From the NCBI RefSeq assembly GCF_026967795.1, contig NZ_JAPVBH010000002.1:310001-374000 (forward strand): a stretch of DNA of 64,000 nucleotides, in the 5' to 3' direction. Positions 303-33,585 of the stretch are shown here, piece by piece (the stretch's first letter is position 1; every line of letters begins with the position of its first letter). The DNA is from Modestobacter sp. VKM Ac-2986 (lineage in GTDB: Bacteria; Actinomycetota; Actinomycetes; Mycobacteriales; Geodermatophilaceae). The notes under the pieces are model-generated. The model was not told the origin of the DNA, did no database searches, and was given only the letters and a program-made list of their open reading frames with translations. Both the position numbers and the translations under genes were made by a program.

Positions 303-1451
303 GTGACAACCGGGACGCAGCAGCGCGAACCCTCCGCCGGGAGCGCCACCGAGACCACGGGACGACCCGCTCTCGCGGTCGCCGACCTCGACCGGCTGCG
401 GGCCGCCGTCGAGTCGGCGCTCCGCTCCTTCCTGACCGAGCAGCGCGAGACGCTGGCCGCCATGGCCGCCGAGCTGGTGCCGGTCGCCGACGAGGTCGTC
501 GCCGTCGCCGGCGGGGGGAAGCGGTTGCGGCCGGCCTTCGCCTACTGGGGCTGGCGCGGCTTCGCCGCCGCCTCGGGCGTGGCGCGCGAGACCGACGACG
601 CGGTGCTGCGCGCGGTGGCCGCGCTGGAGCTGGTGCACAGCTCCGCCCTGGTGCACGACGACGTGATGGACGCCGCCGTCACCCGGCGCGGCCGCCCGGC
701 CACGCACGTGGGCTTCGCCGACCGGCACGACGGCCACGCCCTGGACGGCGACGCGGCGGCCTTCGGCGTGGGCGCGGCGATCCTGGTCGGCGACCTGGCC
801 CTGGTCTGGTCCGACGAGCTGCTGCGCCGGTCGGGCATCTCCACCGACGCCCTGGCCCGGGTCCGCCCGGTCTGGGACACCATGCGCACCGAGGTCACCG
901 CCGGTCAGTACCTGGACCTGCTGCGCGCCGCCGGTGGCCTGCCCGGCCCGGCCGGTGCGCTCAAGGTCGCCCGGTTCAAGAGCGCCGGCTACACCGTGCA
1001 GCGCCCCCTCCAGCTGGGCGCCGCGCTGGCCTGCGCCGGGCCCGCGGCCATGGAGGTCTGCAGCGCGGTCGGCCTGCCCCTGGGCGAGGCCTTCCAGCTG
1101 CGGGACGACGTCCTGGGCGTGTTCGGCGACCCCTCGGTCACCGGCAAGTCCGTCGACGACGACCTGCGGGAGGGCAAGCGCACGCTGCTGGTCGCGCTGA
1201 CCGAGGAGGGCACCGACGACGCCGGCCGGCGTCTGCTGGCGGGCACGCTGGGCAACAGCGCCGCCGACCCGGCCGAGCTCGACGGCGTCCGGGCGCTGAT
1301 GACCCGCAGCGGCGCCCTGGCCCGGGTCGAGGAGCGGATCGCCGAGCAGACCGGCCAGGCCCGAGCCGCGATCGCCGGCGCACCCCTGGCCGACGACGCC
1401 CGCCAGGCGCTGGACGCCCTCGCCGTCGCCGCCACCACCCGCGCGGCATGA
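303..1451 (+). CDS. idsA: Polyprenyl diphosphate synthase (GGPP/FPP synthase type)
   Basis: A 382-residue trans-isoprenyl diphosphate synthase. It condenses IPP with allylic diphosphates to make the C15-C20 precursor used by the two carotenoid genes that follow. The first aspartate-rich motif is HDDVMD (about residues 118-123), followed by RRGRPATH. The second motif is degenerate, [10 protein letters not shown] instead of DDxxD, as seen in actinobacterial idsA2-type enzymes. GTG 303 is preferred over upstream in-frame codons because those run back into the divergent metF, and an AATACT hexamer sits 6 nt before it. The stop overlaps the crtI start (ATGA), so the two are translationally coupled. 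Chain length cannot be assigned from sequence; GGPP is inferred from the crtB neighbour. Confidence 0.9.
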
Positions 1452-30741: not shown

Positions 30742-30775
30742 AGCTGACGAATCACAGTGGTGCGATTTGTCAGCT
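30742..30775 (-). terminator. Hairpin at the end of the Cys-motif protein gene
   Basis: A 12-bp stem with one G-T pair (30742-30753 with 30764-30775) and a 10-nt loop overlaps the stop codon. It is unusually AT-rich for this genome. Confidence 0.5.
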
Positions 30776-31162
30776 CACGTGGCGACTGCCCCGGATGAAC
30801 GCATCCTGATGACGCAACGGCGGAACCAGCCCGAACTCTGCCAACGCGCGGACCGCCTCCTGCTCCACCTCGTCCAGTTCGACCAGCGACCAGGGGTCGT
30901 CGGCGGACGTGTCCACGTGGATCACGTCACACTCGGCGTCGACACGTCCGGGCGCGTCGCCGGCCGCGACGGCACCCACCGCCCCCGCCTGTCCGGCCCG
31001 GACCACGGGCTCCCCGGCCCCGACCGCCGGCCGCCGACGGGTCAGCGGCACGACGGTGGGGTCGCTCCCCCGCCAGCCGGGTGGCGCGCCCAGCAGGACG
31101 GTCACGACGCAGTCGTCGCAGCCGTGACCGCGGACGGTGCAGGTGTCACAGTCGATGAGCAC
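30770..31162 (-). CDS. Conserved small protein with double CxxC motif
   Basis: A 130-residue protein I recognise only as a conserved actinobacterial unknown. The N-terminus is VLIDCDTCTVRGHGCDDC followed by VVTVLLG, giving two CxxC pairs (C5/C8 and C15/C18) that look like a zinc or Fe-S site. A variable Ala/Gly-rich middle (about 40-85) and a C-terminal helix VELDEVEQEAVRALAEFGLVPPLRH follow. GTG 31162 has the strong ribosome site AAGGAGAG. Its promoter region matches a DNA-damage promoter motif shared with the divergent exonuclease/UvrC-like gene, so a role linked to the damage response is inferred. Confidence 0.8.
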   Translation of the reverse strand: MLIDCDTCTVRGHGCDDCVVTVLLGAPPGWRGSDPTVVPLTRRRPAVGAGEPVVRAGQAGAVGAVAAGDAPGRVDAECDVIHVDTSADDPWSLVELDEVEQEAVRALAEFGLVPPLRHQDAFIRGSRHVS

Positions 31163-31202
31163 GACGGCTCTCCTTCTCTCTCTCCGGGTCCGGACAGCGC
31201 GG

Positions 31203-31225
31203 ACGTTAGGGACGGGCACCGACAG
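31203..31225 (-). promoter_or_regulatory. RecA-NDp/PafBC-type DNA-damage promoter, minus strand
   Basis: Minus strand: CTGTCGGTG (31225-31217), exactly 8 nt, then TAACGT (31208-31203). This fits the mycobacterial LexA-independent damage promoter TTGTCRGTG-N8-TANNNT with one mismatch. It drives the Cys-motif protein gene, with a leader of about 35 nt holding its ribosome site. Confidence 0.6.
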
Positions 31226-31295
31226 TTCCGTCCCGCCGCCGCACGGGCCCCACGTCCGGCCCGGCCGCCCGGCGTGGGCTGCACGGAACTGTCGG
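31219..31295. repeat. Perfect 13-bp inverted repeat forming the -35 regions of two divergent promoters
   Basis: 31219-31231 and 31283-31295 are exact reverse complements (ACGGAACTGTCGG read outward on each strand), 51 bp apart. Each copy is 10 bp from its own -10 hexamer. Confidence 0.85.
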
Positions 31296-31311
31296 ACACC
31301 CGACCTAGCGT
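31289..31311 (+). promoter_or_regulatory. RecA-NDp/PafBC-type DNA-damage promoter, plus strand, leaderless
   Basis: CTGTCGGAC (31289-31297), 8 nt, then TAGCGT (31306-31311), 7 nt before GTG 31319. It matches the damage-promoter spacing exactly, with two or three mismatches in the upstream box. Confidence 0.55.
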
Positions 31312-31318
31312 CCGGGGC

Positions 31319-33301
31319 GTGCTGTTCCCCCCTGTCCCACCCTTCCCGCCGGACGCACCCGGGGCGCCGCCGGACCGAGCCGGGTGGCAGCAGGTGGCAC
31401 TGCCGGTGCACGGTGCCGCAGCGCCGGAGGTCTCCGCGCCCGGCCGGCCGCGCTACCACCAGGCCACGATCGACGACCTGGGCACCGCGCTGGCCGAGGT
31501 CACCTTCGTGGTGGTCGACCTGGAGACCACCGGCGGCAGCCCCAAGGACAGCGCGATCACCGAGATCGGCGCGGTCAAGGTCCGTGGCGGTCAGGTGGTC
31601 GGGGAGTTCCAGACCCTGGTCGACCCGGGGCACGCGATCCCGCCCTACATCAGCGTGCTCACCGGCATCACCACGACGATGGTCGCCGCCGCCCCCCGGA
31701 TCGCCGCCGTGCTGCCCGGCTTCCTGGAGTTCGCCCGCGGCACCGTCCTGGTGGCCCACAACGCCCCCTTCGACCTGGGCTTCCTGCGCGCGGCCTGCGA
31801 GGCCAGCGACATGGCGTGGCCGGCGTTCGCCTCGGTCGACACCGCCGTCCTGGCCCGCCGGCTGCTCACCCGCGACGAGGTGCCCAACTGCAAGCTCGGC
31901 ACCCTCGCGCCCTTCTTCTCCTCCCGGACCCAGCCCACCCACCGCGCCCTGGAGGACGCCCGGGCCACCGTCGACGTGCTGCACGGCCTCTTCGAGCGGC
32001 TGGGTCCGCTGGGCGTCACGTCGCTGGAGGAGCTCACCGGCCTCACCCGCCAGGTCGACCCGCGGCGCCGGCGCAAGCGCCACCTGGCCGAGGACGTCCC
32101 CCACGGCCCCGGCGTCTACGTCTTCCGCGGTCCCGGCGACGAGCCGCTCTACGTCGGCACCTCCGGTGACCTGCGCACCCGGGTCCGCAGCTACTTCTCC
32201 GCCGGCGAGCAGCGCAGCCGGATGACCGAGATGATCACCCTCGCGGAGCGGATCGAGACGCTGCCCTGCGCCCACGACCTCGAGGCGGCCGTCCGGGAAC
32301 TGCGGCTGATCGCCCAGCACAAGCCGCGCTACAACAAGCGCTCGCGCTTCCCCGAGCGGGCGCTGTGGGTCCGGCTCACCGACGAGCCCTTCCCCCGGCT
32401 GTCGGTGGTCCGCCGCGAGGTCCCCGGCACGGGCACCTTCCTCGGCCCGTTCCCCGACCGCCGGGCCGCCGAGGCCGCGATGGCGGCGGTGCACGAGTCG
32501 CTGCCGCTGCGGCAGTGCACCGGCCGGCTGTCCCTCACGGTGCTCGGCAGCGCGTGCGCGCTGGCCGGGATGGGCCGCTGCGGGGCGCCCTGCACTGGAG
32601 CGCAGAGCCGGGAGGAGTACGCGTCGGTGGCCGAGGTCTTCACCGCCGCCGTCGACCACGACCCCCGCGGCCTGGTCGCCCCGCTGCTCGAGCGTGTCGA
32701 GCGGCTGGCCAGCGAGGGCCGCTACGAGGACGCCGCAGAGCTGCGCGACCGCGCCGCCGTCCTCGTGCGCGCCGTCCGACGCCGGCAACGGCTGGCCTCG
32801 CTGGCCGCGGTGCCCGAGCTGACCCTGGCCCGGCCCGACGGGGAGGGCGGGTGGCAGCTGTCGGTGGTCCGCAGCGGCCGGCTCGTGGCCGCCGGGGTCG
32901 CCGAGCGGGGACGCTCGGTCCGCGGGTACCTCGCCGACCTGCGCGCCACCGCCGAGACCACCACCACCCCGGAGGGAGAGCTGGCCGCCACCGTGGAGGA
33001 GACCGAGCTCGTGCTGCGGTGGATGGAGAAGCCGGGCACCCGCCTGGTCGACGTCACCGGCACGCTCGCCAGCCGCACGCCCGGCACCGGTGACTACAGC
33101 GGCTTCCTGGCCCTGGTCGAGGCCGGCCGGGCCGAGCGGGACCCCTTCGCCGACAACCGGGCGCTGGGCACCCGGTCCCAGCCCGACCGGGTCACCCCGG
33201 GCCGTCCCGCCGAGCCCGGCCGGCGGTCCCGGCCCCGACCCGACGGCCGCACGCCGGGACGGCGCGGGCGGACCGGCACCGGGCTAGCATCCCCGACGTG
33301 A
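31319..33301 (+). CDS. DEDDh exonuclease fused to UvrC-like GIY-YIG endonuclease (Rv2191 type)
   Basis: A 660-residue two-domain nuclease. A DnaQ-like 3'-5' exonuclease covers about residues 50-225: FVVVDLETTGGSPKD, VLVAHNAPFDLGFLR and the final THRALEDARATVDVL with its His/Asp. A UvrC N-terminal GIY-YIG domain follows at about 255-340 (GPGVYVFRGPGDEPLYVGTS, DLRTRVRSYFSAGE). Then come UvrC-like Cys residues (CALAGMGRCGAPC) and a UVR-type EDAAELRDRAAVLVRAV. It is probably an alternative excision-repair nuclease like Cho/Rv2191. GTG 31319 is leaderless (TAGCGT 7 nt upstream) and the promoter resembles the RecA-NDp damage box. The basic C-terminal tail overlaps the next gene by 4 nt. Confidence 0.9.
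   Translation: MLFPPVPPFPPDAPGAPPDRAGWQQVALPVHGAAAPEVSAPGRPRYHQATIDDLGTALAEVTFVVVDLETTGGSPKDSAITEIGAVKVRGGQVVGEFQTLVDPGHAIPPYISVLTGITTTMVAAAPRIAAVLPGFLEFARGTVLVAHNAPFDLGFLRAACEASDMAWPAFASVDTAVLARRLLTRDEVPNCKLGTLAPFFSSRTQPTHRALEDARATVDVLHGLFERLGPLGVTSLEELTGLTRQVDPRRRRKRHLAEDVPHGPGVYVFRGPGDEPLYVGTSGDLRTRVRSYFSAGEQRSRMTEMITLAERIETLPCAHDLEAAVRELRLIAQHKPRYNKRSRFPERALWVRLTDEPFPRLSVVRREVPGTGTFLGPFPDRRAAEAAMAAVHESLPLRQCTGRLSLTVLGSACALAGMGRCGAPCTGAQSREEYASVAEVFTAAVDHDPRGLVAPLLERVERLASEGRYEDAAELRDRAAVLVRAVRRRQRLASLAAVPELTLARPDGEGGWQLSVVRSGRLVAAGVAERGRSVRGYLADLRATAETTTTPEGELAATVEETELVLRWMEKPGTRLVDVTGTLASRTPGTGDYSGFLALVEAGRAERDPFADNRALGTRSQPDRVTPGRPAEPGRRSRPRPDGRTPGRRGRTGTGLASPT
33285..33290 (+). promoter_or_regulatory. 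-10 hexamer TAGCAT inside the nuclease gene, leaderless promoter of the AsnC-type gene
   Basis: TAGCAT lies 7 nt before GTG 33298, within the last codons of the upstream CDS. Confidence 0.5.
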
Positions 33302-33585
33302 TCACCGCCATCGTGATGATCGATGCCGCCACCGACTCGATCGGCGAGGTCGCCGAAGCGGTCGCCGCCCTGCCCGGCGTCAGCGAGGTGTACTCCGTGG
33401 CCGGTGGGGTCGACCTGGTCGCCCTCGTCCGGGTGCACGAGTTCGAGGAGATCGCCCAGGTGATCGCCGGACGGATCAACAAGGTGCCCGGGGTGCTGGA
33501 CACCGACACCCACATCGCCTTCCGCGCCTACTCCCGGCACGACCTGGAGGCGGCGTTCTCGATCGGCTTCGAGTCCGCCGACTGA
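33298..33585 (+). CDS. Stand-alone Lrp/AsnC ligand-binding (RAM) domain protein
   Basis: A 95-residue RAM domain with no DNA-binding part. Visible are ITAIVMIDAATDSIGEVAEA, ALPGVSEVYSVAGGVDLVAL (the ligand-pocket GxxDxxL) and RINKVPGVLDTDTHIAFRAY. Such proteins form octamers that bind amino acids and act as metabolic sensors or modulate full-length Lrp members. The GTG overlaps the nuclease stop (GTGA) and also has its own TAGCAT hexamer, so it may be made from two transcripts. A nested hairpin follows the stop. Its neighbour across the hairpin is trpD, convergent. Confidence 0.88.
   Translation: MITAIVMIDAATDSIGEVAEAVAALPGVSEVYSVAGGVDLVALVRVHEFEEIAQVIAGRINKVPGVLDTDTHIAFRAYSRHDLEAAFSIGFESAD

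Follow-up and report, generated by a model that had tools for sequence, protein, structure and literature searches.

Genes and promoter pair at the locus

The window, by which we mean the whole 64-kb stretch of Modestobacter DNA that was analysed, includes an intergenic region at 31163-31318 with one gene on either side. On the minus strand, at 30770-31162, lies a gene for a protein of 130 aa with a IDCDTCTVRGHGCDDCVVTVLLG core, four invariant cysteines, and GLVPPLR near its C-terminus (the CxxC protein). Its start is most likely the GTG at 31162, behind the sequence AAGGAG (31170-31175, minus strand), which on direct reading is a likely ribosome binding site. On the plus strand, at 31319-33301, lies a gene for a 660-aa protein of the PRK07883 family (NF005907), which scores 847 bits against a curated cut-off of 454 over residues 44-600 and also matches PF00929. 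This protein is predicted to be a DEDDh exonuclease fused to a GIY-YIG part of the UvrC/Cho kind. Its translation contains VDLETTGG, HNAPFDLGF, HRALEDA, and GVY...YVG, which we take to be motifs with roles in nuclease activity. Rv2191 of M. tuberculosis is presumably its orthologue. In the parts of the DNA damage literature that were covered, Rv2191 is named just in a STRING list, and it is also named among the genes activated under H2O2 (PMC10178195).

A lone gene for an Lrp/AsnC ligand-binding-domain protein (33298-33585, plus strand, PF01037) follows the nuclease gene, whose stop codon is overlapped by its own GTG (GTGA). It may be co-transcribed with the nuclease gene and share its damage promoter.

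The intergenic region contains two PafBC-type promoters that face outwards, each pointing toward its own gene. The promoter of the CxxC gene occupies 31203-31224 on the minus strand (TGTCGG at 31219-31224, -10 hexamer TAACGT at 31203-31208), and that of the nuclease gene occupies 31290-31311 on the plus strand (TGTCGG at 31290-31295, -10 hexamer TAGCGT at 31306-31311). In both copies, exactly 10 nt separate TGTCGG, an element of the TGTC[GA]G type in the -26 region, from the TANNNT hexamer. The PafBC motif of M. tuberculosis and M. smegmatis is TGTCGG/TGTCAG/TGTCAC-10xN-TA-3xN-T and was derived with a PafBC knock-down in M. tuberculosis (PMC8151990, section 3.5); according to the discussion of that paper, its direction is essential. 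Both window promoters match this motif exactly. Direct reading therefore bears out the first-pass annotation, which had described two outward boxes at the correct spacing to their own -10 elements. An older form of the promoter consensus is tTGTCRgtg-8nt-TannnT (PMC5656591). The minus strand reads CTGTCGGTG-N8-TAACGT at 31225-31203 and is, as had been claimed, one mismatch from TTGTCRGTG in that older form. The plus strand reads CTGTCGGAC-N8-TAGCGT at 31289-31311.

Throughout the 64-kb window, TGTCRG-N10-TANNNT has two exact matches, both in region 31163-31318, compared with 0.11 expected from shuffles; one in 100 shuffles of the window reaches two exact matches. When one mismatch is allowed, the window has seven matches against 4.28 expected, so within the window only the exact matches carry weight. 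The LexA/SOS-type operator box is TCGAACNNNNGTTCGA. Region 31163-31318 has no match to such a box with up to three mismatches allowed, and an SOS box was rejected as the control element of the promoter region on this ground.

Motif and regulator genes in the Modestobacter genome

A scan of the whole genome (4.19 Mb in 15 contigs) found 14 copies of CTGTCGG-N10-TANNNT, including the window pair. The same two elements with a spacer of 9 or of 11 occur nowhere in the genome, and neither does the reversed pattern. Repair-type genes behind the other 12 sites are uvrC, sbcD, and a gene for a PD-(D/E)XK nuclease of the RecB/AddB type. Nine of the 12 genes are non-repair by annotation, namely metK, genes for PhoH2, a DAK2/FakA-like protein, an amidase, an isochorismatase-like hydrolase, two ABC transporters, and a DUF5925/AAA protein, and a gene with a marginal Nal1_C match. 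If the longest open frame is counted as the gene, eight of these 12 sites have the gene start 5-9 nt past the -10. The recA promoter has the form TGTCAG-N10-TAGCGT (sequence TGTCAGACCCCCGCCCTAGCGT), and an SOS-type box lies further upstream. The boxes in front of metK and phoH2 (L010, L021), which are not repair genes by name, are exact. The isochorismatase-like gene and its box (L013, G000 C9:165754) lie near a further WYL gene on the opposite strand (L024, C9:164245).

The majority of damage-induced mycobacterial genes are raised by PafBC (PMC6789036). PafBC is activated by single-stranded DNA, takes up a position between the promoter and domain 4 of sigma-A, and reads the -26 motif (PMC11804915). 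In mycobacteria, pafB and pafC share an operon with pafA (PMC5656591). A WYL search of the Modestobacter genome gave five matches, among them a tandem pair on contig 9 that consists of a PafC-type protein (HTH_PafC, WYL, WCX) and a second WYL-WCX protein. A Pup ligase gene (pafA-type) lies about 3 kb from these tandem pafB-/pafC-type genes.

The boxes could instead be read by another regulator, or they could be ordinary sigma-A promoters that have an extended upstream element and work without PafBC. A candidate for the former is ClgR; according to work cited in PMC5656591, it recognises promoters of this type in M. smegmatis. However, the motif, its spacing, and its direction equal those of the PafBC motif from the M. 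tuberculosis knock-down (PMC8151990), and the Modestobacter genome encodes pafB- and pafC-type genes. A PafBC-free reading is thus improbable. The earlier assignment of the boxes to the PafBC type gains support from the agreement with the published motif and orientation, from the pafB/pafC-type genes, and from the conservation described below.

Conservation and independence of the two promoters

To survey the class, a single-sequence search was run on 296 class genomes; it found a match in 168, and loci were taken from 130 of these. Together with eight named Geodermatophilaceae, 138 CxxC loci were examined, and the gene was relocated in 129. TGTC-N12-TANNNT lies within 200 nt upstream of the CxxC gene in 111 of the 129 loci, and the strict TGTC[GA]G form in 96. 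Single-base shuffles of these upstream sequences give rates of 0.14% and 0.03%, respectively. The spacing is nearly fixed: among spacers from N4 to N17, N10 accounts for 111 cases and N9 for one, with none at any other length. At least one CxxC box is found in 30 of the 31 family labels. A looser pattern recovered seven of the nine genes that were not relocated at first, six of them with a box; in L075 and L112, the CxxC gene was not found even by this pattern.

The box as defined is missing from 18 of the 129 upstream sequences, and 15 of the 18 carry a single family label, f29. Fourteen of these 15 keep TGTC at the right spacing and have CA (11) or TT (3) in place of TA in the hexamer. Among these CA/TT loci (L048-L093 range), an ATG follows 6-8 nt further on in 12, and the CxxC gene in these 12 loci looks leaderless. 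Eleven loci from outside the class (L216-L222, L224-L227) were also sampled. Ten of them contain the CxxC motif, and in eight of these ten the 300 nt upstream include TGTC-N12-TANNNT, for the most part in the form TGTCGT, TGTCAT, or TGTCAC.

The nuclease box was followed in 79 distinct sequences of up to 450 nt upstream of nuclease homologues, all drawn from the loci collected in this survey. TGTC-N12-TANNNT is present in 72, in the strict form in 60, and absent from seven; apart from two cases at N4, N10 is the sole spacer. Lack of conservation in relatives had been named at the outset as grounds for giving up the promoter reading, and both boxes proved to be widely kept. Among the 73 nuclease homologues that have a box and whose upstream sequence extends to 450 nt, an in-frame start codon lies within 12 nt of the -10 in 72, and the first in-frame start lies 6-8 nt past it in 69. 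Because the start codon is close to the -10 in nearly all homologues, the nuclease mRNA is probably leaderless. In the window, the nuclease most likely starts at the GTG at 31319, 7 nt past the -10.

All eight named Geodermatophilaceae loci have the CxxC box, and six of them also carry, within that region, the outward nuclease box. The other two (L006, L007) keep the CxxC box but differ in the sequence upstream of the CxxC gene, where the outward box is absent. The nuclease gene of L006 lies 2.1 kb off with its own box. The relation between the two genes was followed further in 28 neighbourhoods (304,135 bases, both strands), in which 49 boxes stand before CxxC or nuclease genes and two elsewhere. 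The latter two (L191, L203) each stand where a nuclease homologue overlooked by the scan motif begins. Both genes were located in 24 of the 28 neighbourhoods, always on opposite strands and pointing apart. Their anchor codons are 227-395 nt apart in 13 neighbourhoods, and all 13 have both boxes. In the remaining 11, a distance of 1.6-4.1 kb separates the genes; nine of these neighbourhoods keep the CxxC box, 10 the nuclease box, and eight both, with one of the two missing in three. Since the boxes are kept where the genes lie this far apart, they are best read as independent promoters. The bidirectional pair proposed in the first-pass annotation is therefore a common arrangement and not a necessary one.

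An antisense box lies within 200 nt in 36 of the 55 loci with a nuclease gene within 900 nt of the CxxC gene. It is absent from all 74 CxxC loci that showed no nuclease gene within 900 nt, although some of these loci are themselves shorter than 900 nt. Three intervening or adjacent frames were scanned, and two of them are YacP-like NYN domain proteins, encoded between the CxxC and nuclease genes (L192:3751-5076, L200:6157-7488).

The window promoters overlap a perfect 13-bp inverted repeat, ACGGAACTGTCGG, whose arms at 31219-31231 and 31283-31295 agree with the earlier description and are 51 nt apart. Such a repeat could be a palindromic operator through which one dimeric regulator controls both genes. 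The perfection of the arms is compatible with this idea, as is the distant locus L132, where the outward 22-nt promoter cores, at 456-477 (minus) and 520-541 (plus), are identical inverted copies. However, exact 13-mer inverted pairs within 130 nt are not unusual in this GC-rich window (35, with overlapping seeds counted), and just four of 81 non-redundant CxxC promoters retain the GGAA that precedes TGTC in the arms. With the boxes also kept at distant genes, a shared operator was rejected as very unlikely. Each gene owns its box, and the inverted repeat is an incidental by-product of the two outward promoters.

The arms can also be read as GGAAC-N19-CGTCC on both strands, with GGAAC and CGTC in each arm resembling ECF sigma promoters of the SigE/SigH/SigR kind. 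This reading was rejected and is given an equally small probability; the spacing exceeds that of the ECF consensus, and the same count of GGAA (four of 81) weighs against it, in a set pre-selected as a whole for TGTC-N12-TANNNT. Chance occurrence of the motif in a GC-rich genome, to which the unremarkable one-mismatch count in the window might point, is practically negligible and is refuted by the exact matches, the strict N10 spacing, the 30 of 31 family labels, the box frequencies before the CxxC gene (111 of 129) and the nuclease gene (72 of 79), and the 49 boxes at the two genes against two elsewhere.

The region thus very probably comprises two independent, outward-facing promoters that depend on PafBC, and sequence comparison strongly supports both window genes as candidate PafBC targets. 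Following the mycobacterial work, PafBC loaded with single-stranded DNA would join the sigma-A RNA polymerase upon DNA damage and would recognise TGTCGG in the -26 region, 10 nt ahead of the -10 hexamer. The plus promoter would then yield a leaderless mRNA for the DEDDh exonuclease/GIY-YIG nuclease, and the minus promoter an mRNA with a short leader and a ribosome site for the small four-cysteine protein. For Modestobacter, we infer damage induction, PafBC dependence, and the transcription start sites from the promoter sequences.

The CxxC family and comparison with known systems

A profile search places the CxxC family in 193 of the 296 sampled class genomes. In a phylum-wide sample, it is present in 66 of 296 genomes, 12 of which belong to the same class or nearer. 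No relatives were found in viral contigs, nor in phages and plasmids with a single-sequence query of each. The median length of relatives is 68 aa (n=129); the Geodermatophilaceae members carry a long variable insert and reach a total length of 114-139 aa. Residues D5, C6, C9, C16, C19, A104, and G112 are invariant in 65 relatives (in a numbering one residue longer than that from the GTG at 31162), and a GLVPPLR-type tail is near-invariant. The family has no significant match in Pfam (best E 0.048 among 65 members) or NCBIfam (best E 0.12), and no relative in the PDB up to E 10. A structure prediction for the window protein, made together with eight relatives, has a mean pLDDT of 44.8. Inspection by eye noticed no membrane segment in the CxxC protein.

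Although the linker varies, 60 of 64 non-redundant members end in G, A, or S. The same holds for 61 of 127 generic C-termini (Fisher p 5e-11) and for 19 of 36 C-termini of the nuclease (Fisher p 3e-6); the relatedness of the sequences makes both p values overstated. This C-terminus is a possible degradation signal. A tentative and rather doubtful proposal is that the CxxC protein founds an ancient, unnamed family at the core of the actinobacterial DNA damage response. It would bind a metal (zinc or iron-sulphur), be made under PafBC and rapidly removed through its C-terminal degradation signal, and act as a transient effector or checkpoint. That it binds metal, is turned over, or serves as a checkpoint is conjecture.

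Among the titles that a limited survey of the PafBC literature turned up, none has the CxxC protein as its subject. The kind of promoter is already known; the lead is a widespread, unnamed protein that appears to be wired to it, and an unnamed four-cysteine family in which most genes are preceded by a PafBC-type promoter is new to us. Given its occurrence in most of the sampled class genomes and the box before most of its genes, the family should belong to the PafBC response, and we infer that the protein would take part in this damage response throughout its family. An anonymous short gene thereby becomes a directly testable candidate of the DNA damage response.

The window pair shares TGTC[GA]G, the N10 spacer, TANNNT, and the gene-facing direction with the mycobacterial PafBC-dependent promoters (RecA-NDp, P1), such as recA P1, and promoters of the same type stand before recA, uvrC, sbcD, and the RecB-like nuclease gene in the Modestobacter genome. 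Unlike those promoters, the window has two outward copies in one intergenic region, and one of them is predicted to drive an uncharacterised gene family. Compared with the NCBIfam PRK07883 DEDD exonuclease proteins, the window nuclease has the same order, with the UvrC-like GIY-YIG part after the DEDDh exonuclease, and shows nothing unusual; its start is predicted to be leaderless. The CxxC protein resembles small damage-induced effectors such as the SOS-induced division inhibitors in its size and its damage-type promoter, and its small C-terminal residues could likewise be a degradation signal. However, no sequence relation to those inhibitors is shown, and the CxxC protein is set apart by its four invariant cysteines.
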